This document shows positions 11,326 through 28,875 of a DNA stretch of 53,489 nt, piece after piece. Origin of the DNA: an uncultured Eubacteriales bacterium (GTDB lineage: Bacteria > Bacillota > Clostridia > Christensenellales > Aristaeellaceae). Below the pieces are notes generated by a model. That model was given only the letters and a program-made list of their open reading frames with translations. It was not told the origin of the DNA and did no database searches. The position numbers and the translations under genes are program-made. The DNA is taken from positions 1 through 53,489 of the forward strand of contig CADAPM010000009.1 of NCBI GenBank assembly GCA_902789795.1, read 5' to 3'. Every line of letters begins with the position of its first letter. The first letter of the stretch is position 1.

Positions 11326-11354
11326 ATTATATACCGGCTGCGGTCGTTTGTCCC
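11326..11354 (-). promoter_or_regulatory. Promoter of the sensor/kinase/regulator operon
   Basis: Minus-strand -10 TATAAT (11331-11326) with a weaker -35 GGGACA (11354-11349) at 17-bp spacing, about 50 bp before the sensor start codon. Confidence 0.6.
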
Positions 11355-11442
11355 CCTCAATTACAACAGGAAATGACGGTTCACCGGGCTGCGCAGAAGT
11401 GTTCTATTCAATTATACACAAATATTGAAGCTCGGGTTGCCC

Positions 11443-12461: not shown

Positions 12462-13052
12462 TCATTCATAGACGCAGATCTCCGCCGCCTGGGCGCCGCC
12501 AGTGCGGGAGGCGCTGCTCATGGTGAAGATCAGCTTGACGTAAGCGGCCTGGACCTGATCAAAGTCGATGCGGATGCGGTTGCCGGTGGCGGCGTCGAAC
12601 TGGTACTTTTCAGGGGCCGCCACCTCGGTATAAGTCTCCCCGTCCAGGCTCACCTGCACGGCGATCTCCTGGATGCGCGGCTCCCAGATGGAGGAGGGAT
12701 TCAGGCACACCGCCGCCGTCGAGACGGCATAGGTGCCCTGCAGGTCGATGACCATTTCGGCGGGCCAGCCCTTGCTCTCCCAGTAGGTATCGGTCTTGCC
12801 GTCGTTCACGTTGCGGCTCACATACACGTCCGTGTGGGCCCCGGCCTGGACGGGCTTGCCCTCGGCCAGGTTTTCGGTCTCGGGCAGGGGGATGAAGTTC
12901 GCGGAAGGATCCGGGAAGCAGGGCGGGCGCTCCGCCTTCGTCTGCTCCGGCGCAGGGACGATGGTCACGACGGTCTCGATCTCTTCCGCGAGACCCATGA
13001 AAGGCAGGACAGCCAGCAGCGCGGCCAGCAGGATAGACAGGGCCTGTTTCAT
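12462..13052 (-). CDS. Secreted stand-alone F5/8 type C (CBM32-like) domain protein
   Basis: From ATG 13052 (GGAG 8 bp upstream) this is a 196-residue protein. A signal peptide (MKQALSILLAALLAVLPFMG) is followed by a short Pro/Glu-rich linker. One discoidin-fold domain then fills residues ~60-196: NLAEGKPVQAG, VNDGKTDTYWESKG, EMVIDLQGTYAVS, the classic F5/8C strands. There is no catalytic domain and no anchor. F5/8C modules normally come attached to glycosidases; here the module is its own polypeptide, 17 bp downstream of a secreted beta-helix glycosidase. It is therefore likely a detached carbohydrate-binding partner. The ligand is unknown. Confidence 0.85.
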   Translation of the reverse strand: MKQALSILLAALLAVLPFMGLAEEIETVVTIVPAPEQTKAERPPCFPDPSANFIPLPETENLAEGKPVQAGAHTDVYVSRNVNDGKTDTYWESKGWPAEMVIDLQGTYAVSTAAVCLNPSSIWEPRIQEIAVQVSLDGETYTEVAAPEKYQFDAATGNRIRIDFDQVQAAYVKLIFTMSSASRTGGAQAAEICVYE

Positions 13053-13069
13053 ACTCGTTCGCTCCTCTC

Positions 13070-14556: not shown

Positions 14557-14610
14557 GTTTAACGCTAAACCTTTCAACGCTATTATACAGGCAGTTTTGG
14601 AAATGAGCAA
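14557..14610 (-). promoter_or_regulatory. Promoter and LacI-type operator of the beta-helix glycosidase operon
   Basis: Minus strand: -35 TTGCTC (14610-14605), 17-bp spacer, -10 TATAAT (14587-14582). Eleven bp later comes GTTTAGCGTTAAAC (14570-14557), a CG-centred near-palindrome of LacI-family type with one mismatch between halves. The operator overlaps the transcription start region, so repressor binding should block initiation or escape. The identical 14-mer occurs at 14699-14712 and 28825-28838. Confidence 0.85.
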
Positions 14611-14653
14611 GACAAAAATGGAAAATTTTTTCCAAATTTTCTATTTTTCCCCC

Positions 14654-14712
14654 TTGACAGGGCCAGAGGCGGCATGCTATAATCACGTCAACAGATAGGT
14701 TTAGCGTTAAAC
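14654..14712 (+). promoter_or_regulatory. Promoter and LacI-type operator of the secreted beta-sandwich gene
   Basis: Consensus -35 TTGACA (14654-14659), 18-bp spacer, -10 TATAAT (14678-14683), then GTTTAGCGTTAAAC at 14699-14712, inside an 18-bp extended palindrome AGGTTTAGCGTTAAACCT. This copy and the one at 14557-14570 lie back to back 128 bp apart between divergent genes, so a tetrameric or looping repressor could control both. Confidence 0.88.
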
Positions 14713-14742
14713 CTGTCAAATAAAAATCGGAGGAAAGTCACT

Positions 14743-15456
14743 ATGAAGAAATTCCTTGCTATCCTTCTCGCCGCCATGATGCTTCTGGCCGTGGCCGCTC
14801 CCGCTCTGGCGGAAGGCGAAGTCTTCCTGTGGGACAACTTTGACGAGCGTGACCCCAACGCGAAGCCCGAACTGGCTCCCAACGGCGCCCCCATCTGGTG
14901 GGACAACTGGGCCAACCTGCGCGGCAAGAACGATGAAGGCGCTATCAAGCTGGACATGCGCCCCAAGGCCTTCGACACCGAAGACTATGAGAACGAAGAT
15001 GATTACTTTGCTCACGCCGGCGACTGGATGGCCAACTGGGGCGAAGCCATCGACATGTGGCGTCTGGACGGCATCAGCTACTGCAAGTACCTGACCATCC
15101 GCATCAAGGGCGCGGAAGGCGGCGAAGAGAACAAGCTGATCATGGACTGGCATCCGGAAGACAGCAAGTTCTACGCGGCCCGCTTCTCTGACCTCGTGAC
15201 CAAAGACGGCGGCCATCCGCAGATCACCACCGAGTGGCAGGACATCGTGATCGACCTCGAAGCCTCCGGCTTCCCGGGCATGACCAACGCCTTCCACATC
15301 CGCGCTTTCGCCAAGTGCGTCATCTGGCTGGATGAGATCTCCTTCTCCGAGGCCGTTGCGCCCGTGACCGCGAATCCCACCGAGGGCATGACCCTGCCCG
15401 AGACCGGCAAGCCCGGCGACCTGCCCATCAAGGAATACCTGGCTGCTCTCGAATAA
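14743..15456 (+). CDS. Secreted stand-alone beta-sandwich (CBM-like) protein
   Basis: A 237-residue exported protein: signal peptide MKKFLAILLAAMMLLAVAAP, cleavage near ALAEG, then one domain of about 180 residues. The strand pattern ends KYLTIRIKG, QDIVIDLEASGFPG and CVIWLDEISFSE. It resembles the jelly-roll carbohydrate-binding modules in which a final strand carries an Asp/Glu metal-site residue. It has many surface Trp residues (WDNF, WWDNWANL, DWMANW, MWRLDG), as expected for sugar stacking. I cannot name the CBM family. The C-terminal tail contains LPETG but no following hydrophobic segment. It is divergent from the beta-helix glycosidase and carries the same operator, so it belongs to the same regulon. 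A role as an extracellular glycan-binding protein is inferred. Confidence 0.8.
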   Translation: MKKFLAILLAAMMLLAVAAPALAEGEVFLWDNFDERDPNAKPELAPNGAPIWWDNWANLRGKNDEGAIKLDMRPKAFDTEDYENEDDYFAHAGDWMANWGEAIDMWRLDGISYCKYLTIRIKGAEGGEENKLIMDWHPEDSKFYAARFSDLVTKDGGHPQITTEWQDIVIDLEASGFPGMTNAFHIRAFAKCVIWLDEISFSEAVAPVTANPTEGMTLPETGKPGDLPIKEYLAALE

Positions 15457-15466
15457 TCAATGAACG

Positions 15467-15537
15467 ACCGCCTCAGGCGGTACGGACCGCCGCCTGGCGG
15501 TGTGAAGCAAGCATGCTCCGCACCCCAGGCGGTATTT
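15467..15537 (+). terminator. Tandem hairpins after the beta-sandwich gene
   Basis: Two GC-rich inverted repeats in a row, ACCGCCT/AGGCGGT (15467-15481) and ACCGCC/GGCGGT (15486-15501), are followed by a third AGGCGGT with TATTTT at 15533-15537. Any of several pairings would stop transcription before the LacI gene. Confidence 0.7.
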
Positions 15538-15650
15538 TAGTACAGAAAAACTCTTGCACCAACCCCAAAAACCAGTTAAACTATCCTCATCCTTTCTCTT
15601 TCCCCTTCACCCTTCACCCTTCAACCTGTCTTGATGCTCTGGAGCAAACT

Positions 15651-16676
15651 ATGGTCACTTTAAAGGATATCGCCGCCGAAGCCGGCGTAAGCATCACCAC
15701 CGTATCCAACGTGGTCCACAACCGGAAGAGCCGCGTCTCCCCCGAGCGCGTCGCGAAGATCTGGGAGATCATCGAGCGGGAGCACTATGTGCCCAGCATG
15801 TCGGCGCGCTCCCTGGCCAACGACCACTCCTATATCATCGGCGTCATCACGCACCTGACGCCCCAGAACGTGGGCAGCACCATGAGCGACCCCTTCCTGT
15901 CCAGCTTTGTGGACAGTATCGAGCGCCACACCCGCGAGGCGGGCTACTACATCATGATCCGCTCCGTAGAGGACGCCGAGGCCCTGGAGGTGCTGACCCG
16001 CAGCTGGCGGCTGTCCGGCCTGATCGTGACGGGCATGTTTGAGGACGGGTTTTATGACACTACCGTCCGGCTGGACATCCCCTTCGTGCTGATCGACAGC
16101 TATATCAACGACCCCGAGGTCTGCTGCGTGGGCCTGGAGGATGAGAAGGGCGGCTACCTCGCCACCCGGCATTTGCTGGAAAACGGCCACCGCCGGATCG
16201 CCTTCGCCTCCCCGTCCATCCGCCCCGGCGGCGTCATCGACAAGCGCTTCCAGGGCTACCGCCGCGCCCTGCAGGAATTCGGTGTGGCCTACGACCCCGC
16301 CCTGATCTTCACCCAGGAGATGTCCGTGGAGGACAGCCGCCGCCTGGGCAGGACGCTGGCCGAGAAGAAGGACATTACCGGGATCTTCGCCTCGGCGGAC
16401 ATCATGGCCGCCGGCATCATGGCGGGCCTGGCCGAGGCCGGGCTTTCCGTGCCGGAGGACAAGTCCATCGTCGGCTTTGACGATAACTACCTGGCCCAGC
16501 TGACCGTGCCCGGCCTGACCACTGTGCACCAGGACGCGGACCTGAAGGGCGTGCTGGCCACCGAGATGATGATGCAGCAATTGCGTCATGAACCCATCGA
16601 GCAGAAAAAGGTGATCCTGCCGGTGCATTTGGTGGAGCGCGGCAGCGTGCGCAGCATCGCGCCCGCCGAGGGTTGA
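15651..16676 (+). CDS. LacI-family transcriptional regulator
   Basis: From ATG 15651 (GGAG 8 bp upstream) this is a 341-residue LacI-type repressor. The N-terminal helix-turn-helix reads MVTLKDIAAEAGVSITTVSN, with the hinge helix (SARSLANDHSYIIGVI) near residue 55. A periplasmic-binding-protein-like effector domain follows (residues 60-330), including SGLIVTGM, GGYLATRHLLENGHRRIAF and GFDDNYLAQLTVPGLTTVHQ. It sits beside two identical CG-centred operators (14557-14570 and 14699-14712), and a third lies before the ABC importer at 28.8 kb. I infer that it represses all three promoters and is released by an imported sugar. No copy of the operator precedes its own gene, so autoregulation is not apparent. 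Confidence 0.93.
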   Translation: MVTLKDIAAEAGVSITTVSNVVHNRKSRVSPERVAKIWEIIEREHYVPSMSARSLANDHSYIIGVITHLTPQNVGSTMSDPFLSSFVDSIERHTREAGYYIMIRSVEDAEALEVLTRSWRLSGLIVTGMFEDGFYDTTVRLDIPFVLIDSYINDPEVCCVGLEDEKGGYLATRHLLENGHRRIAFASPSIRPGGVIDKRFQGYRRALQEFGVAYDPALIFTQEMSVEDSRRLGRTLAEKKDITGIFASADIMAAGIMAGLAEAGLSVPEDKSIVGFDDNYLAQLTVPGLTTVHQDADLKGVLATEMMMQQLRHEPIEQKKVILPVHLVERGSVRSIAPAEG

Positions 16677-16680
16677 GGCC

Positions 16681-17820
16681 ATGAGCGGCAAAAAGAAGAG
16701 CGCCTACGGCACCCAGTGGGCCGGGGTACTGATCTACGCGCTGGTCGGCGCGGTCTGCGGCTTCCTGATGTTGGACTGGTTCTTTTATCTGGACGGCAGC
16801 TTCCTGCCCACAGTTCTCCTGTACGTCCTGTTTTTCCTGGGCCTGGCGCTGGCGATGGTGATCCATACCGTGATCCACGAGGCCGGCCACCTGATATTTG
16901 GCCTGGCCACCGGCTACCGCTTTATTTCCTACCGCGTGTTCCAGTTCATGTGGATCAAGCAGGGAGGCCGCATCCGCTTCACGCGGATGTCCCTGGCCGG
17001 CACCGGCGGTCAGTGCCTGCTGGCCCCGCCGGAACTGAAGGACGGGAAGATCCCCTTCCTGCTCTCCAACCTGGGCGGAGCGCTCATGAACCTGCTGACC
17101 GGCCTCACGTTTTTAGCGGGCGGCCTCCTCTGCCCGCCCTGGACCATCGGCAGGACCTTCCTGCTCCTGCTGGCGGTGTTCGGCTTCGCCTTCGCGCTGA
17201 TGAACGGGCTGCCGATGAGCAGCGGCCCCGTGCCCAATGACGGCAGGAACATCCTCGACATGCTCCGGCATCCCGAGGCCGTGCGTGCCTTCTGGCTGCA
17301 GATAAAGATCAACGAGCTGACCTCCCAGGGCGTCCGGGTCAGGGACATGCCCGCGGAGTGGTTCGAGATGCCCGCCCCGGAGCAGATGACCTGCGACCTG
17401 ATCACCACCATCGCCGTCCTGTGCTGCGACCGCCTGAAGGACGAGCACCGCTTCGCGGAAGCGGACCGGGAGATGGCCCGCCTGCTGGCAGACGCCCCGC
17501 ATCTGGCCGGCCTGCACCGCGCCTTGCTGACCTGCGACCGGACCTTTATCGAGCTGATCACGGAGAACCGCCCGGAAGCGCTGGCGGAGCTGCGCACCCA
17601 AGACCAGCAGCGGATGACAGCCGCCATGAAGACCAGCCCCACCGCGCTACGGACCGAATACGCCTATGCGCTGCTGCAGAAGAAGGACGAAAAGAAGGCC
17701 GCCCAGCTGAAGCAGCAGTTCGACAAGCTCGCCGCCGTCTACCCCTACCCCGTGGAGATCGAAGCCGAGCGGGAGCTGATCAGGATGGCGGAGGACTTGT
17801 GCACCGACCCAAAATCATGA
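16681..17820 (+). CDS. M50-like membrane metallopeptidase
   Basis: A 379-residue protein starting 4 bp after the LacI stop. Two N-terminal hydrophobic helices lead into IHTVIHEAGHLIFGLATGYR, where HEAGH (~66-70) is the zinc and catalytic motif of M50 site-2-type peptidases. More membrane helices follow (~125-185), with MNGLPMSSGPVPNDGRNI resembling the second M50 motif (normally NxxPxxxLDG); Asn-Asp-Gly supplies the likely third ligand. The C-terminal ~170 residues are helical and look like TPR-type repeats. It is co-transcribed with the regulator and with a glycosyltransferase downstream. The substrate is unknown. A link to the sugar regulon is only positional. Confidence 0.82.
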   Translation: MSGKKKSAYGTQWAGVLIYALVGAVCGFLMLDWFFYLDGSFLPTVLLYVLFFLGLALAMVIHTVIHEAGHLIFGLATGYRFISYRVFQFMWIKQGGRIRFTRMSLAGTGGQCLLAPPELKDGKIPFLLSNLGGALMNLLTGLTFLAGGLLCPPWTIGRTFLLLLAVFGFAFALMNGLPMSSGPVPNDGRNILDMLRHPEAVRAFWLQIKINELTSQGVRVRDMPAEWFEMPAPEQMTCDLITTIAVLCCDRLKDEHRFAEADREMARLLADAPHLAGLHRALLTCDRTFIELITENRPEALAELRTQDQQRMTAAMKTSPTALRTEYAYALLQKKDEKKAAQLKQQFDKLAAVYPYPVEIEAERELIRMAEDLCTDPKS

Positions 17821-17827
17821 GGCAGTC

Positions 17828-18970
17828 ATGCGCATATTGTTTGTGATCAATAACGTCTATACCGAAGGAAACGGCCTGTCCGGCTCCTGCAGGCGCACCG
17901 TGAAGCTGCTCCGCGACGCCGGAGAAGACGTCCGGCTGCTGTCCGCCAGAGGCGGTCATGGCGAGGCCCCTGATTTCCCGCTGCCCGACGGCAGGATCCC
18001 GGTCTTCCAGCCCATCATCCGCAAACAGGGCTACGCCTTCGCAAAGTCCGACGAGGCAGTGATCCGCCAGGCGGTGCGCTGGGCCGACGTCGTCCATCTG
18101 GAGGAGCCCTTCGGCCTGCAGATCCGCGTATGCAGGATCGCCGAAGAGGAAGGCAGACCCCTCACCGCCACCTATCACCTCCATCCCGAAAACCTCTTTT
18201 CCTCTGTCCATCTGCAATGGAGCCTCTGGTTCAACCAGATGACGCTGCTGGTCTGGAAGCGGCAGATCTTCGACCGCTGCCGCATCGTACAGTGCCCCAC
18301 GGAGAACGTGCGGAAAAGGCTGGAAAGCGCCCACTGCCGCAGTGAACTGCGCGTGATCTCCAACGGCATGCTGCGGGATGTCCGGCCCGCCCCGGCCTCC
18401 CCGGTCCCTCGCGAGGATGGGACATTCCTGATCGTTTCCACCGGGCGGTATTCTGTGGAGAAGGACCAGAGCACCCTGCTGCGCGCCATGCGCTATACCA
18501 AATACGCCGACAGGATCCGACTGGTGCTGGCCGGACAGGGGCCCACCGAAAAGCGTCTGCGCCGGGAAGCCGCAAAGCTGCTGCGCGAAGGCGTCCTCAA
18601 AAAGCCGGTGATCTTCGGCTTCCACAGCCTTCCTGAGCTGCTGGCCCTGTACCGACAGGCAGACCTGTACGTGCACTGCGCCAAGGTGGAGGTGGAAGGC
18701 ATGTCGTGCATGGAGGCGGTCCAGACCGGCCTGGTCCCCATCATCGCGGAGGGAAAGCTGACCGCCACAGCACAGTTCGCCCTCCATCCCGACAGCCTCG
18801 ACCCCGCCGGAGACGCCAAAGCCCTGGCGCAAAAGATCGATTTCTGGCTCTCCGACGTCGAAAGACGCCAGGCCGAAGCAGCCCGCTATCCCGCCCTGAT
18901 CGAGGACTACAGCATCGACCGTTCCATCGCCCAGCTGCGGGAAATGTTTAGGGACGCGTTGGAAAGCTGA
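17828..18970 (+). CDS. GT4-family glycosyltransferase
   Basis: A 380-residue GT-B fold retaining glycosyltransferase. The N-terminal half begins MRILFVINNVYTEGNGLSGS, a glycine-rich acceptor-side loop. The C-terminal half has LIVSTGRYSVEKDQSTLLRA, LVLAGQGPTEKRL and the nucleotide-sugar motif EVEGMSCMEAVQTGLVPI (E-x7-E type). The family transfers hexoses from NDP-sugars onto lipids or glycans at the inner membrane face. The ATG follows GAGGCAG, 7 bp after the M50 peptidase stop, so both are in the LacI operon. The acceptor cannot be read from the sequence; a diacylglycerol glucosyltransferase or a wall-glycan enzyme would both fit. Confidence 0.88.
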   Translation: MRILFVINNVYTEGNGLSGSCRRTVKLLRDAGEDVRLLSARGGHGEAPDFPLPDGRIPVFQPIIRKQGYAFAKSDEAVIRQAVRWADVVHLEEPFGLQIRVCRIAEEEGRPLTATYHLHPENLFSSVHLQWSLWFNQMTLLVWKRQIFDRCRIVQCPTENVRKRLESAHCRSELRVISNGMLRDVRPAPASPVPREDGTFLIVSTGRYSVEKDQSTLLRAMRYTKYADRIRLVLAGQGPTEKRLRREAAKLLREGVLKKPVIFGFHSLPELLALYRQADLYVHCAKVEVEGMSCMEAVQTGLVPIIAEGKLTATAQFALHPDSLDPAGDAKALAQKIDFWLSDVERRQAEAARYPALIEDYSIDRSIAQLREMFRDALES

Positions 18971-18997
18971 ACAGCAGGGAGCACCCTGAAAACAAAG

Positions 18998-19040
18998 GCC
19001 CTGACCGCAGGAGCCCGGAAACCCGGGCCAGCGGCAGGGC
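18998..19040 (+). terminator. Terminator-like hairpin after the glycosyltransferase gene
   Basis: Outer stem GCCCTGACCGC / GCGGCAGGGC enclosing an inner stem GCCCGG / CCGGGC, followed by AGTTTGATTTT. The T tract is weak, so efficiency is uncertain. Confidence 0.6.
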
Positions 19041-19108
19041 AGTTTGATTTTAGAGGTCACGCACTGCCTGACTGATAGGAAAAAGCCGCATCTTTCACGT
19101 ATTAGTCA

Positions 19109-19137
19109 TTGCATTTGTATTGTTTTAGTTATATAAT
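19109..19137 (+). promoter_or_regulatory. Promoter of the RelB/RelE-type operon
   Basis: -35 TTGCAT (19109-19114) and -10 TATAAT (19132-19137) with 17-bp spacing, 31 bp before the antitoxin ATG. Confidence 0.75.
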
Positions 19138-19168
19138 AGCACTGAATCTATGATTGGAGGATGAATGC

Positions 19169-19462
19169 ATGTCCAGTACGATCCAGATCCGGGTCGATGA
19201 CGACCTGAAGCAGAAATCCGACACTCTGTTCAAAGAGCTCGGCACGGATACCACCTCCGCTGTGAGGATCTTTTTGACACAGGCTGTGGCGTATAACGGC
19301 TTCCCCTTTGAGATCAGGAAAGCCCCTGCCGATCCTTATGCGGCCATGTCCGAAGAAGAGATCCTGCAAAAGCTGGAGAGAGCAAGGATGCACGCCGGCC
19401 AGGGAATGGTCAGAGGCGCAGATGAAATGATCACCGATATGAGGGAAAAATATGGACTATAA
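19169..19462 (+). CDS. RelB/DinJ-family antitoxin
   Basis: From ATG 19169 (GGAGG 8 bp upstream) this is a 97-residue protein with the ribbon-helix-helix N terminus of RelB/DinJ antitoxins: TIQIRVDDDLKQKSDTLFKE, then LGTDTTSAVRIFLTQAV. The acidic, flexible C-terminal half would wrap around the toxin. Its stop overlaps the toxin gene by 11 bp. It should neutralise the toxin and repress the operon promoter as a dimer. Confidence 0.92.
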   Translation: MSSTIQIRVDDDLKQKSDTLFKELGTDTTSAVRIFLTQAVAYNGFPFEIRKAPADPYAAMSEEEILQKLERARMHAGQGMVRGADEMITDMREKYGL

Positions 19463-19766
19463 AGTGGTGGTCACAAAGGATGCGGAAGAAGACCTGGAAC
19501 GGTTCGTGCAGTATCTGCTGTTTGAAAAGCAGAACAGCCAGGCGGCGGTCAATGTATTGAACGACTTTGAAGAGACCGTTCAGGTCCTGTCCCATGTGGC
19601 GGGAAGCCTGAAGCTTTGCGATCACCCGCGGCTGAACGCCCTCGGTTATTGGAAGATTCATTTTCTGTCCCACCGGTATTTTATGCTGTACAGAATTGCG
19701 GACGGTCTCGCGGTGGTCGACAATATCTTCCACGACCTGCAGGATCACGAAAACAAGATCAGATAG
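19452..19766 (+). CDS. RelE/ParE-family toxin
   Basis: A 104-residue toxin of the RelE/ParE fold. It has the N-terminal strand DYKVVVTKDAEEDLERFVQY and late strands NALGYWKIHFLSHRYFMLYR and VVDNIFHDLQDHENKI. RelE-type members cut mRNA in the ribosome and ParE-type members poison gyrase. The HxxxDxxxH-like ending (IFHDLQDHE) is common in the YoeB/RelE plasmid-stabilisation branch, but I cannot choose the activity. It is translationally coupled to the upstream antitoxin. Confidence 0.9.
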   Translation: MDYKVVVTKDAEEDLERFVQYLLFEKQNSQAAVNVLNDFEETVQVLSHVAGSLKLCDHPRLNALGYWKIHFLSHRYFMLYRIADGLAVVDNIFHDLQDHENKIR

Positions 19767-19784
19767 TTCGCGAACAAGAAAGCA

Positions 19785-19828
19785 GAAAGCCCCCATCCTC
19801 CGGGCTCCGACCGGGGATGAGGGCTTTC
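19785..19828 (+). terminator. Terminator-like hairpin after the toxin gene
   Basis: GAAAGCCC-CCATCC pairs with GGATG-A-GGGCTTTC. The hairpin lies between the convergent toxin and ADP-ribosylglycohydrolase genes and could serve both strands: AAAG on one side and CTTTC on the other. Confidence 0.6.
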
Positions 19829-19849
19829 CCGCTTTCCTGCGGGAGTTAT

Positions 19850-20644
19850 TCATTTCCTGTATTTCTCGAATTCGTCCACCACCGCCAGCATATCCGGGGC
19901 CAGGCGCTGGCGGCACTCGGCCTTGAGGGGCTCCGGCACGCCGTAGAATGCTTCGGCCATGCTCCCGGCGATGCAGGTCAGGGTGTCGCAGTCGCCGCCC
20001 AGGGAAACGGCGGTGCGGATGACGTCCTCGAAGTCCTTTCCCTCCAGGAAGGCGGTGATGGCCTCCGGCACGGTCTCCTGGCAGCTCTCCACGTGGCGAT
20101 AGTCGGGGCGGATCTGGTCGCAGGTCCGGGTCAGGTCATAGCCGAATTCGGCGGTAATATAGGCGCGGATCTCCTCCTTATCGTGCCCCGTCCGGGCCAG
20201 GAAGATGGCGGACGCCGTCGCCTCCGCGCCCTTGATGCCCTCGGGATGGTTGTGGGTCACGTCCGCACTGAGCCGCGCCAGGCGGCGGGTCTCCTCCAGC
20301 GTATCACAGAGCCAGCCGGCGGCGGACACGCGCATGGCGGAGCCGTTGCCCCAGCTGTTGTAGGGCTCCGGGTCCTTCTCCTTCAGCCAGTAGATGAACC
20401 GCGCGCCGTACCCGGCGTAAGGATAGCGCCGGCCCCACTTCTGCATGGAGCGGATGACGGCATACCGCACGGAAACATCGTCCTTCCCCAGGGTCTTCAT
20501 CAGGGCCTCCGCCACCGCAATGGTCATCACGGAATCATCCGTGAACTCCGACTCCCGGACAAACAGCGGGAAGTCCTTCGTCTTTTTGCCCCGGTCGAAC
20601 TCATAGGGGGAACCGATCATATCTCCAAGCAACGCGCCGTACAT
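19850..20644 (-). CDS. ADP-ribosylglycohydrolase-family protein
   Basis: A 264-residue member of the DraG/ARH family, which removes ADP-ribose from proteins or other acceptors using two Mg2+ ions. The metal motifs are present: SEFTDDSVMTIAVAEALM (~30-48) near the N terminus and SLGGDCDTLTCIAGSMAEAF near the C terminus, plus NGSAMRVSAAGW in the middle. The ATG follows GGAGG. No ADP-ribosyltransferase gene is in the window, so the substrate is unknown; free-standing clostridial members may act on ADP-ribosylated nucleotides or serve housekeeping repair. It may be transcribed separately from the GH65 genes, because a long palindrome (20742-20779) separates them. Confidence 0.92.
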   Translation of the reverse strand: MYGALLGDMIGSPYEFDRGKKTKDFPLFVRESEFTDDSVMTIAVAEALMKTLGKDDVSVRYAVIRSMQKWGRRYPYAGYGARFIYWLKEKDPEPYNSWGNGSAMRVSAAGWLCDTLEETRRLARLSADVTHNHPEGIKGAEATASAIFLARTGHDKEEIRAYITAEFGYDLTRTCDQIRPDYRHVESCQETVPEAITAFLEGKDFEDVIRTAVSLGGDCDTLTCIAGSMAEAFYGVPEPLKAECRQRLAPDMLAVVDEFEKYRK

Positions 20645-20741
20645 AGGCTTCGCCTCCTTCCGCCTGGAATGGGACCATTATACACCCAACGCCCGCGCCG
20701 CGGTCGCCCGGCAGGCGACATTTTTATTTCATTATACGATC

Positions 20742-20779
20742 TTCGGCAAAAACGACATAGCTATGTTGTTTTTGCCGAA
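20742..20779. repeat. 38-bp near-perfect palindrome
   Basis: Two 19-base arms (TTCGGCAAAAACGACATAG and CTATGTTGTTTTTGCCGAA) meet with no loop and differ at one position. In RNA of either strand that position forms a wobble or a mismatch. It lies between the second GH65 gene and the ADP-ribosylglycohydrolase gene, with a TATAAT (minus strand, 20736-20731) just beyond it. It could be a terminator or cruciform site ending the importer/phosphorylase operon. Confidence 0.8.
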
Positions 20780-20797
20780 TATGAACGATCTATGCCC

Positions 20798-22972
20798 TTA
20801 TCCCATTTCCGTGACCGAATACTCCGTTTCCCCGCTTTCTGTCCGGCGCACATCGATGACATAGCGCTTCTCGCCCGCCGTGACCGGGAAGGTCAGGCGC
20901 TTCAGCTGCCGGGGCAGGCGCGGATGCACCTCCGGGACGCCGGAGCGCATGCGCAGGCCGGCAAAGCCCAGGGCCGCGATCATCCACGCGCCGCCGTTGG
21001 ACGCGGGATGGGTGCCGCCGATGTAGATCTCCCCCGCCCACTGCTTGCCGCCGCCCACGATGTCGATGGAGGCGGTCTTCATGAACAGCTGCCAGGCCTC
21101 CTCCAGCCGCCCGATGCGGCAGGCGGTCAGGGCATACATGCAGGCGGACAGGCTGGAGCCGTGCTCGGTGCGCGGCTCGTAGTAGGCCCAGTTGGCGCGG
21201 ACGTCCGCGTCGGAAAAGTCCTCCGGGAACAGGGCCAGCATGGCGATGACGTCCGCCTGCTTGATGATCTCCGTGGTCCCCGCCACGCCGTGGTCGCCGC
21301 CCCAGTACTCCTTCGGGTCGCAGAGGCGGCCGCGCACCGTCTGGAGGGAGCAGTCCTCCAGCCGGAAGTAGCCGTCAAACTGCTCGATGACGCTGTCCCT
21401 TGTCTGCGGCGCGCGGATCCTGCCGTACATCCGGGACAGCAGGGCCCAATCCTTCTCGTAATCGAGTTTCTTCATCAGCCCGTCCATCATCCCGGGGTCG
21501 TCGGCAAAGATCTGTTTGAGGCCCAGGGCGCTCTCCACGCAATGGCGGATCATGCGGTTGGTGAAGGCGTTGTTGGTCACCCGCTCGTGGTATTCGTCCG
21601 GGCCGATGACGTCCGCAAAGTCCACGTCCCCGGTGTCCAGGTGCGCGTTGGCTCGGCTCAGATAGAAGCGGGCGCATTGCAGGATCACCTCCGCACCGCC
21701 CTCCTCCAGCAGGGTGCGGTCGCCGGTGATCTCATAGTATTGCCGCAGGGCGTACACGATGTCCGCGCTGATGTGGATCTGCTTGTCCCGGAAATAGGTG
21801 CGCACGGGGCGGTGGGTGAAGACGTCCACCACGTTAAAGTTGGTGCAGCCCTCCTCGCCGCCCTCCTGGCTCTCCCAGGCATAGAACGCGCCGCGGTACC
21901 CGTACTCCGCCGCCTTTTTGAGGGCGCCGGGCAGGGTCTCGATGCGGTAGCGCAGCAGGGAGCGGGCGACGCCGGGCTGGGTGTGCACGAACATGGGGAA
22001 GAAGAAGATCTCCGAGTCCCAGAAGATCGCGCCCTTGTAGGTCTGCCCGGACAGGCCCCGGGCAGGGATGGACATACTGAGGGCGTGGCGCGGCGCGACG
22101 CAGTTCAGGTGGTACTGGCTGGCGTGCAGGGCCCGGGCGGCCTCGTCGTCGCCTTCGATCTGGATCTCGGAGCGCCTCCAAACCCCCTCCCAGGCAGCCG
22201 CGTGCTGGGTCTTCAGGGCCTCATAGCCGGTCAGATGGCGCACCTCGGCGCACCGTTCGAGGGGATCCAACACATCCAGCGAGGTATAGACCGCCGCAAA
22301 AATATCAAGGGTCAGGATCTGGCCCTTTTTCACCGGGCAGTGCAGCAGGCGGAACACGCCCGTTTCGTCCTGCACCTGCCGCTCCTCCGCGTCAAAGTCC
22401 CTCTGCACATACTGGCTCACCGCCACCAAAATGCCCTTCTGGCCGGTAACGGCCCGGGCTGTCAGGACCTCGCCCTCATCCAGCCGGAAGTCAAAGAGGT
22501 GCGGCCCGTTGATATCCCAGATGTCGGTGGAGATGCCGCAGCGGATCACCACCTCCCCGTCCTCATGGGCCGTGACCTGATAGCGGTCCGCCAGCAGGTG
22601 GCACAGGGGCAGGCTGGCAAAGCGCTCACTGCGGACGGTGACGGGCCCGAAGTCCGTCTCCCGGCAGTAAACGCCGTGGCGGTAGTCGAGCCCGCAGCGG
22701 TGCGCCTCGTGCGGCTCCGCGCCCAGGGCATATTCCTTGCCATTGAACGAGGTGCGGGCAAAGAGGGCGTGGGGCGCGTTCACCGGCTCGCGCCATTTAT
22801 CCCGGTACTGATCATAGACGCCCGCCAGCGTCACGGCGGGATACAGCTCCCTGCCCGCCTCCTCCGGCGCGCCGCGCAGGCCCATATACCCGTTGGCGCA
22901 AAGGAAGCGGCTGCCGTCAAGAGCCGCGCGGGCAGGATCGAAGCCAAGTATAGAATAGGACCAGGTATCCAT
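20798..22972 (-). CDS. GH65 disaccharide phosphorylase (second copy)
   Basis: A 724-residue cytosolic glycoside phosphorylase of family GH65. The family inverts an alpha-glucosidic bond with phosphate and releases beta-glucose 1-phosphate. Domain order: N-terminal beta-sandwich (1-~260), linker helices, (alpha/alpha)6 barrel (~300-660), small C-terminal sheet. The substrate-site segment RGLSGQTYKGAIFWDSEIF and the general-acid motif VIGPDEYHERVTNNAFTN (Glu ~458) are both present, as is the phosphate-site motif EHGSSLS. There is no signal peptide. The ATG follows GGAGG. It shares only family-level similarity with the neighbouring copy, so the two probably split different linkages (kojibiose, nigerose, trehalose, maltose or glucosyl-rhamnose types are known). 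Which one cannot be read from the sequence. Confidence 0.93.
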   Translation of the reverse strand: MDTWSYSILGFDPARAALDGSRFLCANGYMGLRGAPEEAGRELYPAVTLAGVYDQYRDKWREPVNAPHALFARTSFNGKEYALGAEPHEAHRCGLDYRHGVYCRETDFGPVTVRSERFASLPLCHLLADRYQVTAHEDGEVVIRCGISTDIWDINGPHLFDFRLDEGEVLTARAVTGQKGILVAVSQYVQRDFDAEERQVQDETGVFRLLHCPVKKGQILTLDIFAAVYTSLDVLDPLERCAEVRHLTGYEALKTQHAAAWEGVWRRSEIQIEGDDEAARALHASQYHLNCVAPRHALSMSIPARGLSGQTYKGAIFWDSEIFFFPMFVHTQPGVARSLLRYRIETLPGALKKAAEYGYRGAFYAWESQEGGEEGCTNFNVVDVFTHRPVRTYFRDKQIHISADIVYALRQYYEITGDRTLLEEGGAEVILQCARFYLSRANAHLDTGDVDFADVIGPDEYHERVTNNAFTNRMIRHCVESALGLKQIFADDPGMMDGLMKKLDYEKDWALLSRMYGRIRAPQTRDSVIEQFDGYFRLEDCSLQTVRGRLCDPKEYWGGDHGVAGTTEIIKQADVIAMLALFPEDFSDADVRANWAYYEPRTEHGSSLSACMYALTACRIGRLEEAWQLFMKTASIDIVGGGKQWAGEIYIGGTHPASNGGAWMIAALGFAGLRMRSGVPEVHPRLPRQLKRLTFPVTAGEKRYVIDVRRTESGETEYSVTEMG

Positions 22973-23019
22973 AATATCCTCCGGGTTTTTAATGAATACT
23001 GAAACTTAAAACCGAAAAA

Positions 23020-23071
23020 TGAATAATACAGAGTTTGTTCATGCGGTGTTCAACACTCTCTGTATTATTCA
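23020..23071. repeat. Inverted repeat between the two GH65 genes
   Basis: A 14-bp perfect stem TGAATAATACAGAG / CTCTGTATTATTCA with a 24-base loop, flanked by looser ACTGAAA / TTTTCAGT arms. It sits inside the operon and could modulate expression or mRNA decay between the two genes. A related ATTCATTATTC...TTTTCAGTTTTC string occurs at 7733-7762, so this may be one copy of a dispersed element. Confidence 0.8.
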
Positions 23072-23089
23072 TGATTCCTTCTTCAGTTT

Positions 23090-25378
23090 TCAGTCATCGG
23101 TTTCAACGATCTGCTCTTCCTCTGTCAGCACATATTCCCTGCCGTACACCTTCACACTCAGAGCCTCCCCGGCAGCCAGCCGAAACCCTGTTCCCTGGTG
23201 GTCCATGCGGACAGCAATGATCCTCCCCTGGTACCGGACCGAGAAGCGCAGGCCCTTCCAGCGCTCCGGCAGGCGGGGCGCGAAGCTGAGGCCTTCGCCG
23301 TCGCTGCGCAGGCCCGCAAAGCCGTACACGATGTTCGCCCAGGTCATGGCGATGCTGGTCACGTGCAGGCCCTCCCGGGTGTTGCGGTTGTAGTTGTCCA
23401 GGTCCAGCCGCGTGGCGAAGCCGAAGAAGCGCACCGCTTCATCCATCCGGCCCAGTTCGGCGGCCAGGATGGAGTGGATGGCCGGGGACAGGGAAGACTC
23501 ATGGATGGTGCGGGGCTCGTAGAACTCGTAATTCACCCGCTTCTCCTGCGGTGTGAAGGAGGTGTTGTACAGGTACAGCATCATCAGCACGTCAGGCTGC
23601 TTGATCATGTCGGAGCGGTAGATGCGGTCGTAGCTCCAGTGGTCGTAGAGCGGGAACTCGCTCACAGGGATGGCGTCGATGTCGGTGTGCGGCAGGTCGA
23701 AATACCCGTCGTGCTGCTCGATCAAGCCGCTTTCGTCCTGGGGTAGATACATGTTCTCGGCGATCTCCCTCCACAGGGCGGGCTCCTCTGCCGCGAGGCC
23801 CGTCTTGCTGATCAGCGCTTCGTATGCTTCGGGCCGGTCCGCGCGCATCTGTTCGAGGGCGTCCGCCGCGTACTGCAGCGTGCGCTGGCCCATATAGTTG
23901 GTGTAGGCGTTGTTGTTCACCATCATGTGGAACTCGTCCGGCCCCATGACGCCAAAGAAGCCGTACTTGCCCGTCCGGCCGCCCTTTTCGGCGCGGCTGG
24001 CCAGGAAGCGGGCGATCTCCAGCAGCATTTCCGCGCCGCAGCTATACAGGAACTCGCGGTCGCCGGTCACGTGCACATAGTGCCAGATGCCGTAGGCCAC
24101 GGCGGTGCTGGGCTGCAGCTGCAGGCTCGCGTGCTGCCACAGGGAGCAGGCCTCGTCGCCGTTGATGGTGGCGATGGGGTAGCACGCGCCCCGGCAATCC
24201 AGCATTTTCGCGCGTTCCCGGGCCTCGGGCAGGGTGTTGTACCTAAACATCAGCAGGTCCCGGGCCGCCCGGGGCTCGGTGAACAGGTAGAAGGGCAGGC
24301 AGCAGGACTCCGTGTCCCAGAAGGCGTGGCCGTTATAGGCCTCGCCCGTCAGACCCTTCGCGCCGATATTGTGGCGCATGCTGCCGCCGCTGTAGATCTG
24401 GGCCAGCTGGAAGCTGCAGAAGCGGATGCCCTGCTGCTCCGCGGCCGTGTCGGCCTCGTTCCCCTCTGCCGCTTCGATCTGGATGTCCGAGCTGCGCCAG
24501 TAGTCCGCCCAATAGGCTTTCTGCGCTTCCAGCGCCGCGTCCAGCGGCACCTTTGCGCTCTCTTCCAGGGCCTTGAGGCCGCTCTGCCACAGGGCGTCCC
24601 CCTCCTGGCCGTCGAACAGGAGCACGACGCGCTTGTCGATGCACACCGGCTTGCCCTGCTCCAGGGCGATAGCCGCGCTCAAGGACACGGTCTTATCCGC
24701 GACCCGCGGCTGCCCGTTCACGTCCAGAACCGCGCCCGCAAAGACCTCCTGCCCCGAGCGCAAGGTGCGCGCCTGAATCATCAGCCGTCCATCCTGGGCC
24801 TCCCCGCGTACGCTGTTCCAGTAGCACTTTTGATAGCCCTCGTGAGTGACGTCAAAGGAGAGCCCCGAGGTCAGCGCGGCCTCGCCCGAGAAGTTGAGCG
24901 CCTCCAGCACGATGCGCTGGTACGCCCGTTCCCGATGGGTCATATCCGTAAAGCGCAGGAAGGTGAGGCGCAGCTCTTTGCCCGAAGCCGTCCGCCAGAT
25001 GAAGCTGCGGGTCAGCACGCCGGAGCGCATATCCAGCTCGCGCCGGAAGTCCCGGAAGCTGACGCGCCCCAGGTCCAGCCTTTCCCCGTCCACGGTGATG
25101 TCCGTCATCAGCCAGTCCGCGGCGGGGATCATGAAATGGGTATGGTCGATGATTCCCTTATAGGAGCGCGGGATCGGCTCAATATCGTATACGCCGTTCA
25201 GGTACGCGCCGCGCAGGGAATCGGCGCTGCCGCCCTCGTCAAAGAAGCCGCGCACGCCGGTGGTCTCATTCGCCAGGGAAAAGACCGACTCGCTCACCCG
25301 GGAATAGGCGGGGTCGAAGCCCTCCTCGACGATCCGCCAGGGATCCACTTTGAAGTAAACATCTGCTGCCTTTGCCAT
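23090..25378 (-). CDS. GH65 disaccharide phosphorylase (first copy)
   Basis: A 762-residue GH65 enzyme with the same architecture as its neighbour: N-terminal beta-sandwich, linker, alpha/alpha barrel and C-terminal sheet. Distinct motif versions are KGLTGEAYNGHAFWDTESCC, the acid motif VMGPDEFHMMVNNNAYTN (Glu ~480) and HESSLSPAIHS at the phosphate site. The GHAFWDTE form is the version I associate with maltose/trehalose-type and related phosphorylases. It lies 14 bp after the second ABC permease gene, so import and intracellular phosphorolysis are encoded together. The product, beta-glucose 1-phosphate, needs the pgmB encoded at 11759-12391. Exact substrate unknown. Confidence 0.93.
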   Translation of the reverse strand: MAKAADVYFKVDPWRIVEEGFDPAYSRVSESVFSLANETTGVRGFFDEGGSADSLRGAYLNGVYDIEPIPRSYKGIIDHTHFMIPAADWLMTDITVDGERLDLGRVSFRDFRRELDMRSGVLTRSFIWRTASGKELRLTFLRFTDMTHRERAYQRIVLEALNFSGEAALTSGLSFDVTHEGYQKCYWNSVRGEAQDGRLMIQARTLRSGQEVFAGAVLDVNGQPRVADKTVSLSAAIALEQGKPVCIDKRVVLLFDGQEGDALWQSGLKALEESAKVPLDAALEAQKAYWADYWRSSDIQIEAAEGNEADTAAEQQGIRFCSFQLAQIYSGGSMRHNIGAKGLTGEAYNGHAFWDTESCCLPFYLFTEPRAARDLLMFRYNTLPEARERAKMLDCRGACYPIATINGDEACSLWQHASLQLQPSTAVAYGIWHYVHVTGDREFLYSCGAEMLLEIARFLASRAEKGGRTGKYGFFGVMGPDEFHMMVNNNAYTNYMGQRTLQYAADALEQMRADRPEAYEALISKTGLAAEEPALWREIAENMYLPQDESGLIEQHDGYFDLPHTDIDAIPVSEFPLYDHWSYDRIYRSDMIKQPDVLMMLYLYNTSFTPQEKRVNYEFYEPRTIHESSLSPAIHSILAAELGRMDEAVRFFGFATRLDLDNYNRNTREGLHVTSIAMTWANIVYGFAGLRSDGEGLSFAPRLPERWKGLRFSVRYQGRIIAVRMDHQGTGFRLAAGEALSVKVYGREYVLTEEEQIVETDD

Positions 25379-25392
25379 CGGTTCGCCCTCTT

Positions 25393-26262
25393 TTACCCTT
25401 TGATGCCTACGGATACCGCGTTTTCAGTCAGCTGTTTCTGGAAGATGAAGAACAGGATGATGGGCGGGATCATGGAGAAGACCACCGAGCGCATCATCGT
25501 GTCGGCGTTCACGGTCTGCTCGGTGCTGAACACGAACAGGCGCACCATGACCGTCTGCAGTGTGCCGCCGCGCAGCACCAGGTACGGCAGCAGGAAGTCC
25601 GACCACGCCGCGTTGACCGCAAAGATGGCGATGACCGTGCAGATGGGCTTGGACAGCGGCAGCACGATGTGGAAGAAGGTCTGCAGCTGGCTGCAGCCGT
25701 CGATGCGGCTGGCCTCCACGATGGAGGAGGGCAGCGACTCGAAGAACTGCACGAACAGGATCACATACATGGCGTTGGCGCCGTAGGACAGCCACAGCGG
25801 GACGAAGGAATTGCCCAGCCCCAGCTTCTGGATGTTCATGAACAGGGGCACGATGCTGATGGTGGTGGGCATGAGCAGGGAGAGCATCACCAGGCGCTTG
25901 ACCACCTTGTGCCCCTTGGGCTTCAGGATGCCGATGCCGTAGCCCAGCAGGCCGTTGAAGATGAGCGCGCAGACCACGCTGCCCACTACGAAAATCAGGG
26001 AGTTCAGGTAGTTCTTGGCGATGCCCAGCTGGGACCAGGTGACGGCGTAGGCGTTCAGATCAAAGGACTTCGGGAAGATCGAGGTGCTGGACACGAACTC
26101 CTTCAGGTCCTTGAACCCGGCCAGCACCACCCAGATAAGGGGGAACACGGCCAGGACCACCATCAGCCCGCAGAGGAACAGGATGAACCCGTAACCGATC
26201 TTCACGGAGGTGGAATGCATGTCATAATCCCGGATCACGCCGGTGCGCTGGATATTTTTCAC
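25393..26262 (-). CDS. CUT1 sugar ABC transporter permease (MalG type)
   Basis: A 289-residue inner-membrane permease with six hydrophobic helices. The EAA loop reads EASRIDGCSQLQTFFHIVLP, followed by SKPICTVIAIF, the contact site for the ATPase subunit. The start is GTG at 26262, preceded by GGGGGAAGG. It pairs with the permease encoded 16 bp upstream. No MsmK/MalK-type ATPase is encoded in this window. CUT1 importers in Firmicutes often share a distant common ATPase, so this one is probably supplied from elsewhere. Confidence 0.93.
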   Translation of the reverse strand: MKNIQRTGVIRDYDMHSTSVKIGYGFILFLCGLMVVLAVFPLIWVVLAGFKDLKEFVSSTSIFPKSFDLNAYAVTWSQLGIAKNYLNSLIFVVGSVVCALIFNGLLGYGIGILKPKGHKVVKRLVMLSLLMPTTISIVPLFMNIQKLGLGNSFVPLWLSYGANAMYVILFVQFFESLPSSIVEASRIDGCSQLQTFFHIVLPLSKPICTVIAIFAVNAAWSDFLLPYLVLRGGTLQTVMVRLFVFSTEQTVNADTMMRSVVFSMIPPIILFFIFQKQLTENAVSVGIKG

Positions 26263-26278
26263 GTGCCTTCCCCCTTCC

Positions 26279-27187
26279 TCAGTCCCAGTCGGATTCTTTG
26301 CGGTTGAAGTAGGAATAAATGGCCGTCATGACCAGCAGGATCAGCGTGACGATGACCGCCACCGCCGAGGCCTTGCCATAGTTCATGCTGCCGCCGAAGG
26401 CGTACTGCCACATAAGCTGCATCAGGGACAGCGAGGCGTTGTCCGGGCCGCCCTTGGTCAGGACCATGGGCTCGTACATGATCTGGAACACGGAAATGAT
26501 CTGCAGGATCAAGAGCGTCCCCGCCAGCTTCCGGATGGAAGGCAGCAGAATGTGGATGATCCTGTGCCAGACGGTGGCGCCGTCGATGGCCGCGGCCTCG
26601 TACAGCTCCGGGCTCACCCCGGCCATGCCCGCCATATAGATCAGCGCCGTCGCGCCCGCGCCCTTCCACGTGGCGATCAGGATGATGATGGGGATGACCC
26701 AGTCCGCGTGCGTCAGGTAGGTCTGGGCCGGGATGCCCAGCCGCATCAGGATGATGTTGAACACGCCGGACTTCTCGCCGGAAAAGAAGGCGGACCAGAG
26801 GATGATAACCGCCAGACCGGGCAGCATGTTGGGCAGGTACACCGCCGTGCGGAAGAAGCCCTTCCCCCGCCGGGTCTCGCCGATCAGCATGGCCAGAATC
26901 ACCGGCAGCGCGAAGCCCAGCAGCAGCGACCAGAAGGTGTAGGAGAAGGTGTTCAGGAGCGCCTGCATAAAATCGTCCTTGCCCACGACGCTCACAAAGT
27001 TATCCAGCCCGATGAACCGCACCAGCTCCACGTTCCGCGTCTTGTACAGGCTCATGCGGATGCTCTCGAACAGCGGCTCCCACACGAAAAACGTCATCAG
27101 GACCAGCCCCGGCAGCATGATCAGCCAGGACTTAAAGCTCTCGCTCCGTTTCGCATGGGACCGGACGCGCTTGGCAGATTGGGACAT
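26279..27187 (-). CDS. CUT1 sugar ABC transporter permease (MalF type)
   Basis: A 302-residue permease with about six transmembrane helices. The EAA loop is YEAAAIDGATVWHRIIHILL, followed by PSIRKLAGTLLIL. The N terminus is basic and cytosolic (KRVRSHAKRSESFKSW). It forms the membrane channel with the MalG-type partner to import oligosaccharides delivered by the lipoprotein-like binding protein encoded just upstream. A heptad-repeat hairpin lies in the 157-bp gap between the binding-protein gene and this one, which may lower expression of the permeases relative to the binding protein. Confidence 0.93.
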   Translation of the reverse strand: MSQSAKRVRSHAKRSESFKSWLIMLPGLVLMTFFVWEPLFESIRMSLYKTRNVELVRFIGLDNFVSVVGKDDFMQALLNTFSYTFWSLLLGFALPVILAMLIGETRRGKGFFRTAVYLPNMLPGLAVIILWSAFFSGEKSGVFNIILMRLGIPAQTYLTHADWVIPIIILIATWKGAGATALIYMAGMAGVSPELYEAAAIDGATVWHRIIHILLPSIRKLAGTLLILQIISVFQIMYEPMVLTKGGPDNASLSLMQLMWQYAFGGSMNYGKASAVAVIVTLILLVMTAIYSYFNRKESDWD

Positions 27188-27212
27188 AGGGATACCCCCT
27201 GGATTAAGAAGT

Positions 27213-27341
27213 TGGAATAGGAGAGAGAGGTTAGGTAGGAAGGAGGAGTTAGGAAGTAGGAAGTAATCAATGTTTCTGCAGTGGCGCTTTATACGCCGCC
27301 TGAACCAGTAGAATTACTTCCTACTTCATCCTTCCTACTTG
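27213..27341. repeat. TAGGAAG heptanucleotide hairpin element, copy 1
   Basis: Left arm of purine-rich tandem heptads (GGTAGGAAGGAGGAGTTAGG, then AAGTAGGAAGTAAT), a ~45-base centre containing GTGGCGCTTTATACGCC, then the complementary arm ATTACTTCCTACTTCATCC. It fills the gap between the binding-protein and permease genes within one operon. The same layout recurs at 34541-34666 and 41239-41407, with a half copy at 32315-32340. Confidence 0.85.
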
Positions 27342-27344
27342 ATC

Positions 27345-28778
27345 TTAGATGTCATTGATCTCATCATCCAGATATTCCTGGAACGACTCTTCGGCCTGGC
27401 GGAGGGCTTTGTTGACGTCAGCGCCTTCGCGGGTGATCATGCGCTGGATCACGGCGGTCAGCTCGCGGTAGAGCTGCTGGGCGAAAACGGGCTCCTCGGA
27501 CTTGAGGGTGATGGTGCCTTCATTGATGGAATCGAAGAAATCGTTGTACAGGCGCATATCCACATTGCAGTATTCGTCGATGATGGCCTGCTTGGCGGCG
27601 TTGTACTCCTCGTCGGTCCAGGCGCTGATAGCGGGCAGCACGGGAGCGCCGCGGTCGCGCTTGGCGGCGTAGTCGGCGCGCATGCCGGCGATGATCTGGT
27701 CATCCAGGAAGGGCAGCTTGCCGATGACCTTCAGGTAAGCCATCAGGGCGATGCCCTGGTCCGCCGTTATGTTGGGCGCGAACATGTAGCAGGTGCCGCC
27801 GGCCAGGGCGTAGCGGCCCGCGTCTCCGGCAGGGAAGGGGATCAGGGCGAAGTCCTCCACGGGCAGGCCCTTGTTGGAGGTGGGCTGGTCCACGGAGTCA
27901 TCCGCGGCAAAGTTCATGGCCGCCTCGCCGGTGCCCAGCAGCGTGTGCGCGCTGGCCCAGTCGGTGGTGGTGGCGTCCACGTTCAGGATATCGTACTTCC
28001 AGCGCAGGTCGCGCATGAACTCCATGGCAGCCACGCACTCGGGCGAGGTAAAGTTGCACACCCAGCGGCCGTCCTCGTCCTGGTATTCCAGGGCGCTCTC
28101 GCCCACGCAGCCAAAGTTCCAGGCGATGTTGGTGAAGAGCCAGCCGCCGTAGGTCTCGCTGGCGGGGAAGACCAGGCCGGCCTTGCCCGTCTTTTCCTTG
28201 ATGATCTTGCCGTACTCGGCCATCTCCTGCAGGGTCTTGGGATAAATCGGCAGGCCCTCGTCATCCACCAGGCCCGCCTGACGGAACAGGTCCAGGTTCA
28301 GGTGCATACCCAGCACGTAGCCGTCCCGGGGCAGGCCGTAGATGCGGCCGTTCTCATCCGCCAGCATCTCTACGTAGGAGGGGCTGAACTTGTCCAGCAC
28401 GCCGAACTGCTTGAGAGCGTCGGTCACGTCGCCCACCAGGTGCTGGCTGATCAGCAGCTGGGGATCGGTGAAGGGGGGCTGGAAAATGCTGGGCGCCGTG
28501 CCGCCTTTGGCCATGGGCACATAGTTGCTCAGCGAGTAGGAGTAGTAATCGGGCACCAGCGTCACGTTGGGATACTGCTTCGCCATGGTGGCCTTGTACC
28601 CCTCGAACAGGTCCTTCTCCGCCTGGGCGGCCGTGTCCGGCGGCCAGTTGCCCAAGGTGAGCGTGCAGGTCAGATTCGCGTCGACCACTTCGTCCGACTC
28701 CGCGAAAACGGCCGGCACCGCGGAAAGCAGGAGGCAAAGCGACAGGAGCAGTGATAAGGATTTGACGAGCTTGTTCAT
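27345..28778 (-). CDS. Extracellular sugar-binding protein of a CUT1 ABC transporter
   Basis: From ATG 28778 (GGAGG 7 bp upstream) this is a 477-residue family-1 solute-binding protein. The signal peptide is MNKLVKSLSLLLSLCLLLSA, but no strict lipobox Cys follows (SAVPAVFAES), so anchoring is uncertain. The body shows typical MalE-like features: WPPDTAAQAEKDLFEGYKA near the N terminus, GRIYGLPRDGYVLGMHLNL at the hinge, and GTCYMFAPNITADQGIALMA late. It should capture the oligosaccharide released outside and hand it to the two permeases. As first gene of the five-gene operon it carries the LacI-type operator in its promoter. Confidence 0.93.
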   Translation of the reverse strand: MNKLVKSLSLLLSLCLLLSAVPAVFAESDEVVDANLTCTLTLGNWPPDTAAQAEKDLFEGYKATMAKQYPNVTLVPDYYSYSLSNYVPMAKGGTAPSIFQPPFTDPQLLISQHLVGDVTDALKQFGVLDKFSPSYVEMLADENGRIYGLPRDGYVLGMHLNLDLFRQAGLVDDEGLPIYPKTLQEMAEYGKIIKEKTGKAGLVFPASETYGGWLFTNIAWNFGCVGESALEYQDEDGRWVCNFTSPECVAAMEFMRDLRWKYDILNVDATTTDWASAHTLLGTGEAAMNFAADDSVDQPTSNKGLPVEDFALIPFPAGDAGRYALAGGTCYMFAPNITADQGIALMAYLKVIGKLPFLDDQIIAGMRADYAAKRDRGAPVLPAISAWTDEEYNAAKQAIIDEYCNVDMRLYNDFFDSINEGTITLKSEEPVFAQQLYRELTAVIQRMITREGADVNKALRQAEESFQEYLDDEINDI

Positions 28779-28824
28779 TTTCAAACCTCCCCAAAACATA
28801 TTCTATGCGTTTCCTATCAACATA

Positions 28825-28875
28825 GTTTAACGCTAAACTCGACTGTATTATAGAGTACTCTTCCCGTTTTGTCAA
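28825..28875 (-). promoter_or_regulatory. Promoter and LacI-type operator of the ABC importer/GH65 operon
   Basis: Minus strand: -35 TTGACA (28875-28870), 17-bp spacer, -10 TATAAT (28852-28847), then GTTTAGCGTTAAAC at 28838-28825, 8 bp below the -10. The 14-mer and its direction relative to transcription are identical to the two copies beside the LacI gene 14 kb away, which ties this operon to the same regulator. Confidence 0.88.

Follow-up and report, generated by a model that had tools for sequence, protein, structure and literature searches.

The DNA considered here is a 53,489-nucleotide stretch from an uncultured Eubacteriales bacterium of the Aristaeellaceae (contig CADAPM010000009.1, assembly GCA_902789795.1), referred to throughout as the window, and it carries a secreted glycosidase operon, a transcript for a secreted protein of 237 amino acids (aa) and a LacI-family protein, and an importer/phosphorylase operon. 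An initial annotation had placed three identical 14-bp operators at their promoters, and GTTTAGCGTTAAAC is indeed present in three exact copies, at 14557 (minus strand), 14699 (plus strand) and 28825 (minus strand). The elements on which a shared regulation would rest are as follows.

14557-14570, minus: operator of the glycosidase operon, GTTTAGCGTTAAAC, 11 bp below the -10 box
14582-14610, minus: promoter of the glycosidase operon, TATAAT at 14582-14587, 17-bp spacer (by eye), weak TTGCTC at 14605-14610
14699-14712, plus: operator of the 237-aa protein/LacI transcript, 15 bp below the -10 box
14654-14683, plus: promoter of the 237-aa protein/LacI transcript, TTGACA at 14654-14659, 18-bp spacer, TATAAT at 14678-14683
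28825-28838, minus: operator of the importer/phosphorylase operon, 8 bp below the -10 box
28847-28875, minus: promoter of the importer/phosphorylase operon, TATAAT at 28847-28852, 17-bp spacer, TTGACA at 28870-28875
15651-16676, plus: LacI-family repressor, 341 aa, recognition helix ITTVSNVV, no tetramer tail

Operators and promoters

The 14-mer is the CG-centred near-palindrome that had been described, with half sites that mirror each other except at positions 6 and 9. Scanning the window with up to three mismatches returned the same three places only, each matched on both strands, while 100 shuffles gave a mean of 1.18 matches, with one of the 100 reaching six. The whole-genome scan proposed with the initial annotation (2.59 Mb in 64 contigs, 88% complete; up to two mismatches) likewise returned these three places, all at this regulon, and no others, with 1 + 4 chance matches for the reversed pattern. 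The 12-bp core TTTANCGNTAAA had one extra place, on another contig, and its reversed control also gave one match per strand.

All three copies sit below a perfect -10 box, and the annotated geometry, with sites 8-15 bp below TATAAT and a -35 box spaced by 17-18 bp, was confirmed at each promoter, the -35 being TTGACA at two and a poor TTGCTC before the glycosidase. The sites start at or just after the expected transcription start, a position suited to a repressor that blocks RNA polymerase. At the 237-aa gene the palindrome, judged by eye, runs past the 14-mer, reading AGGTTTAGCGTTAAACCT in the window (14693-14718) and ATAG...CTAT in many relatives, so that the actual operator at this promoter may measure 18-22 bp. 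Two of the window's three sites can be extended by eye, one to 16 and one to 18 bp.

Conservation of the operator and spacing of the divergent pair

We searched 150 genomes, the bacterium's own included, with the LacI protein (E <= 1e-40) and obtained a match in 35, of which 11 were at least 70% identical. The exact 14-mer occurs 24 times in the 150 genomes, only in those 11, and by hand comparison with locus maps all 24 copies were located at the three promoters; the reversed 14-mer occurs three times. Frequent copies away from sugar genes were thus found neither in this genome nor among the 150. The next genome (G040, LacI 63% identical) has operator variants with one or two mismatches. Across the family, LacI was detected at E <= 1e-105 in 33 of 308 genomes, and the loci of 32 of these (G237 is cut by a contig end), together with three public loci, were taken for comparison, with L063, L066 and L067 dropped as duplicates of L088, L131 and L095.

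Within 150 bp upstream of genes in 37 loci, cut start regions excluded, the operator (at most one mismatch of 12) was present in 88 of 89 first-gene regions vs 0 of 117 later-gene regions, although related loci share descent and the counts are not independent. It precedes the glycosidase in 33/33, the 237-aa gene in 32/33 and the solute-binding protein in 23/23 cases (window included), the sole exception being L096 with two mismatches before the 237-aa gene. It was absent before permease 1 (0/23), GH65a (0/24), GH65b (0/21), the F5/8 type C gene (F5/8C, 0/30) and the mutase (0/19). The consensus core of the 88 sites is GTTtA[G/A]CG[T/C]TaAAC. At genus level, GH65a is present in six of eight genomes, the same six that hold LacI at >=70% identity. 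A search of 396 genomes of the order for the operator pair returned the bacterium's own genome only and says little, since just three of the 33 LacI genomes (G000, G074 and G169) were in that draw. Paired like sites (at most one mismatch) also occur in distant loci, 62-64 bp apart in L076 and L071 and 134 bp apart in L080, and in L076 and L080 the pair precedes a binding-protein gene.

The same orientation relative to each promoter, as first described, holds for the three copies of the window but not across the compared loci. Counting exact copies, window included, the two orientations stand at 50 vs 11 in total, divided as 15:2 before the importer, 10:8 before the glycosidase and 25:1 before the 237-aa gene. 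Two promoters thus show an orientation bias, strongest before the 237-aa gene, which does not amount to a rule.

The divergent operators at 14557 and 14699 are separated by the annotated 128 bp (142 bp centre to centre), and it had been suggested that this spacing would allow looping. We regard a GalR-like loop of two dimers as a possible, tentative addition to repression from the single sites. Operator spacings in 32 loci (from 40, after removal of the three duplicates, of L084 and L089, which are without LacI, and of L088, L134 and L064, which are without the glycosidase start) group about 10 bp apart, at 131-134, 140-145, 150-155 and 158-164 plus 178, and -10 to -10 distances in the same loci show no such grouping. 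None of 5,000 nulls matched the observed register value of the uncollapsed spacings, and with lineages merged manually according to the locus tree the register test gave p = 0.016 with 18 lineages and p = 0.0045 with 15. This tree mixes genera, which suggests transfer. However, the loci share descent, the best spacing period is 9.35-9.6 bp and not 10.5, and a control distance, from the glycosidase start to the second operator, scored better than the spacing itself (p = 0.0002 and 0.0006), so the register test is not clean. Likewise, nine hand-chosen independent pairs departed from multiples of 10 by a mean of 2.1 (by hand) vs 2.5 expected by chance, and 15651-16676 has no tetramer tail. The grouping of the spacings is suggestive, and the evidence for register is equivocal. 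A loop of the LacI tetramer type was rejected, as the tail is absent (341 aa, the match to the LacI model PRK09526 ending at position 333 of 358).

E. coli LacI has the same domain make-up and a palindromic operator just below its promoter, and differs from the present system in its tetramer tail and operon content. In the E. coli GalR repressosome, as described in PMC4693257, dimers of a LacI-family protein loop with HU between two operators that lie 113 bp apart on either side of the promoters, compared with 142 bp here. Unlike that system, our locus has two divergent promoters, and both a loop and a role of HU in it would be hypothetical.

The LacI-family protein and its probable operator

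The protein at 15651-16676 matches PF00356 (helix-turn-helix) and PF13377 (sugar-binding core), both over cut-off, and a symmetric dimer would be enough for operator recognition. As had been pointed out, the window has no other LacI gene, although this is weak evidence, since the genome holds eight LacI-type genes. Six of the others are 22-29% identical to it, the seventh (L005) was compared by recognition helix only, and TTVSNV occurs in none of the seven.

We then compared lacI upstream regions in 51 rows, duplicates still included. Where LacI is 46-53% identical, 12 of 17 loci, several of them labelled Lachnospiraceae, have a site of at most two mismatches immediately ahead of lacI, at a distance of 19-148 bp; at 29-42% identity a like site was found in 3 of 16 (L037, L039 and L082). 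Such sites in distant loci, together with the differing helices of the other own LacI proteins, name the binder in part. A pattern scan of the gap before lacI in the window found no promoter, which makes read-through from the promoter of the 237-aa gene, and hence autoregulation, likely.

Several observations weigh against this assignment. Five of the 17 distant loci are without a site before lacI (L024, L025, L027, L075 and L077), although only 90 bp could be searched in L027, and none of the 18 rows with LacI at >=63% identity has one 400 bp or less from the start of lacI. In these rows the operator and lacI are separated by the 237-aa gene, and autoregulation here would accordingly depend on the read-through. 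L037 and L039 carry a like site with LacI only 37-39% identical, so other LacI proteins can share the operator. Co-occurrence of operator and LacI is also expected from joint inheritance of the locus and cannot by itself name the binder. Furthermore, most LacI-family motifs measure 16-22 nt according to PMC4052901, which is more than the 14 bp of the core.

The resemblance of LacI-family sites to one another, the eight genes of the genome and the sites of L037 and L039 could suit another of the bacterium's own LacI-family proteins, either a paralogue or a CcpA-like global regulator, with the neighbouring LacI serving other targets. We consider this improbable, given the low identity and different helices of the other proteins; in addition, the operator differs at 5 of 14 positions from the cre consensus (compared by hand), and its three genome places are unlike the sites of a global regulator. 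That the 14-mer is a conserved promoter element without LacI binding is very improbable: its distance to the -10 box is nearly fixed before the 237-aa gene (15 bp in 29 of 32 loci), but it ranges from 7 to 15 before the glycosidase, where TATAAT is kept in 31 of 32, the 14-mer is a CG-centred palindrome, and distant loci that yielded no 237-aa gene have the site ahead of lacI itself.

Taken together, the conservation of the operator, the site before lacI in distant loci and the unshared helix indicate that 15651-16676 is most likely the local, autoregulated repressor of the three promoters. The proposal that three operons form one circuit is supported by operators conserved at first genes and absent at later ones and by a recognition helix unique within the genome, and we put the probability of a LacI-repressor circuit over three promoters for alpha-glucan use, as the whole explanation, at roughly 0.85. 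A dimer of 15651-16676 would bind GTTTAGCGTTAAAC at the three promoters, covering or closely following the transcription start and blocking RNA polymerase. Repression would extend to the secreted GH49-like glycosidase, the F5/8C protein and beta-phosphoglucomutase, to the 237-aa secreted protein and, via read-through, lacI itself, and to the ATP-binding cassette (ABC) importer with two GH65 phosphorylases. It would be released by an imported alpha-gluco-oligosaccharide or its product.

Genes of the three transcription units and related systems

13070-14530, minus: secreted two-domain beta-helix glycosidase, GH28 by sequence, nearest GH49 by predicted fold
12462-13052, minus: secreted F5/8 type C (galactose-binding-like) domain protein (scan range 12462-13073; start placed by eye)
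11759-12391, minus: beta-phosphoglucomutase, TIGR01990 over cut-off
14743-15456, plus: secreted 237-aa protein, between operator and LacI gene
27345-28778, minus: ABC solute-binding protein (start 28778 chosen by eye because of a ribosome-binding site; 28799 also listed)
26279-27187, minus: ABC permease 1
25393-26262, minus: ABC permease 2
23090-25378, minus: GH65 phosphorylase a, closest solved structure 6w0p, then maltose phosphorylase 1h54
20798-22972, minus: GH65 phosphorylase b, closest solved structure 4ktp

The gene set fits alpha-glucan use by cutting, import and phosphorolysis, as judged from predicted families. The polymer would be cut outside the cell by the secreted enzyme and the oligomers imported, after which the GH65 enzymes would release beta-glucose 1-phosphate for conversion to glucose 6-phosphate by beta-phosphoglucomutase.

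The GH28 Pfam model scores the glycosidase (P0003) over cut-off and matches 10 of 10 family members. The N-x-D-G/DD residues are present and D278, D299 and D300, which we take to be catalytic, are invariant. GH28 enzymes carry GHG and RIK motifs, whereas by eye in the alignment this glycosidase has neither and shows AQS and LSIHN there instead. Its predicted model combines a beta-sandwich with a beta-helix, as in GH49, but it differs from GH49 isopullulanase and dextranase in sequence, the GH49 model giving a weak match in only one of 10 members (E 0.37). In L064, L065 and L068, which supply 3 of the 19 mutase rows, the homologue (58-60% identical) lies after lacI and outside the glycosidase operon. 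Adjoining the mutase gene of the window is a broken ferredoxin-like cysteine stretch (11425-11700, minus, by eye), and beside the regulon, at 8374-11360, are two adjacent sensor-kinase-like genes (GHKL ATPase/PAS; seven-transmembrane histidine-kinase N-terminus), some of their scores just under cut-off.

The 237-aa protein has no Pfam or NCBIfam match, and its low-confidence model gave weak carbohydrate-binding-module matches. L068 and L065 carry two or three copies of it within a single reading frame, and it is a candidate new sugar-binding domain. Its LPETG was rejected as a sortase signal, since the motif is variable and is not followed by a membrane stretch (by eye). Two genes at 16681-18970 start 4 bp past lacI and separate it from the GH65 operon (379 aa, with a weak M50-like match below cut-off, and a GT4 glycosyltransferase). 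They have no match in the relatives' loci that were taken and are probably an insertion, which may ride on the lacI transcript.

Both GH65 proteins have N, central and C domains over all three cut-offs. The structure closest to GH65b, 4ktp, is a 2-O-alpha-glucosylglycerol phosphorylase (PMC8950772). Reading the six-residue specificity fingerprint of PMC8537180 by hand gave ?-A-I-S-Q-S for GH65a, with position 416 placed via maltose phosphorylase, which agrees at three of five positions with FAITQA of the alpha-1,3-oligoglucan enzyme, and E-E-Q-T-Y-D for GH65b; neither equals a motif printed in the parts of that paper covered by the comparison, which did not extend to its figure logos. No ATPase was found among the scanned cluster genes, and other contigs carry seven MalK-type ATPase domains, five of them over cut-off, so the importer is probably served by a shared ATPase encoded there. 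An ADP-ribosylglycohydrolase gene (19850-20644) lies just downstream of the operon.

Ravcheev et al. 2014 (PMC4052901) report a CG-centred even palindrome for 1173 of 1303 LacI-family regulators and autoregulation for 72%, and the present locus resembles the local sugar regulons described there in its palindrome, the position near the start codon, the sugar genes and a probable autoregulation. This motif and gene set were not found in the abstract, section and passages of that paper covered by the search, its supplement and RegPrecise lying outside it. A literature search for the perfect palindrome GTTTAACGTTAAAC, the asymmetric form of the window being outside its scope, found none, and searches on GH65/GH28/GH49/LacI combinations returned nothing on this locus. 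The branched-dextran locus FjDexUL of Flavobacterium johnsoniae, as described in PMC10316084, is likewise an alpha-glucan locus in which a dextranase and surface binding proteins stand together with a GH65 enzyme, although with GH66, GH31 and GH97 enzymes and TonB-dependent import where we find a GH49-like enzyme, import of the ABC type and two GH65 enzymes.

The type of regulation is ordinary and well known, and the operator, the regulon and the enzyme set are new members of it. A bolder proposal makes the secreted enzyme the founder of a new alpha-glucanase family, intermediate between GH28 and GH49; together with the two unassigned GH65 enzymes and the 237-aa binding domain it would belong to an undescribed pathway for branched or mixed-linkage alpha-glucan, with the divergent operators in helical register for a GalR-like loop. 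As a whole we hold this to be unlikely. The circuit over three promoters turns unnamed genes of uncultured gut-type Clostridia into one testable pathway and offers a clean operator as a handle for finding the regulon in other genomes. It also points to the secreted enzyme, GH28 by sequence and GH49 by predicted fold, and to the two GH65 phosphorylases for expression and assay.
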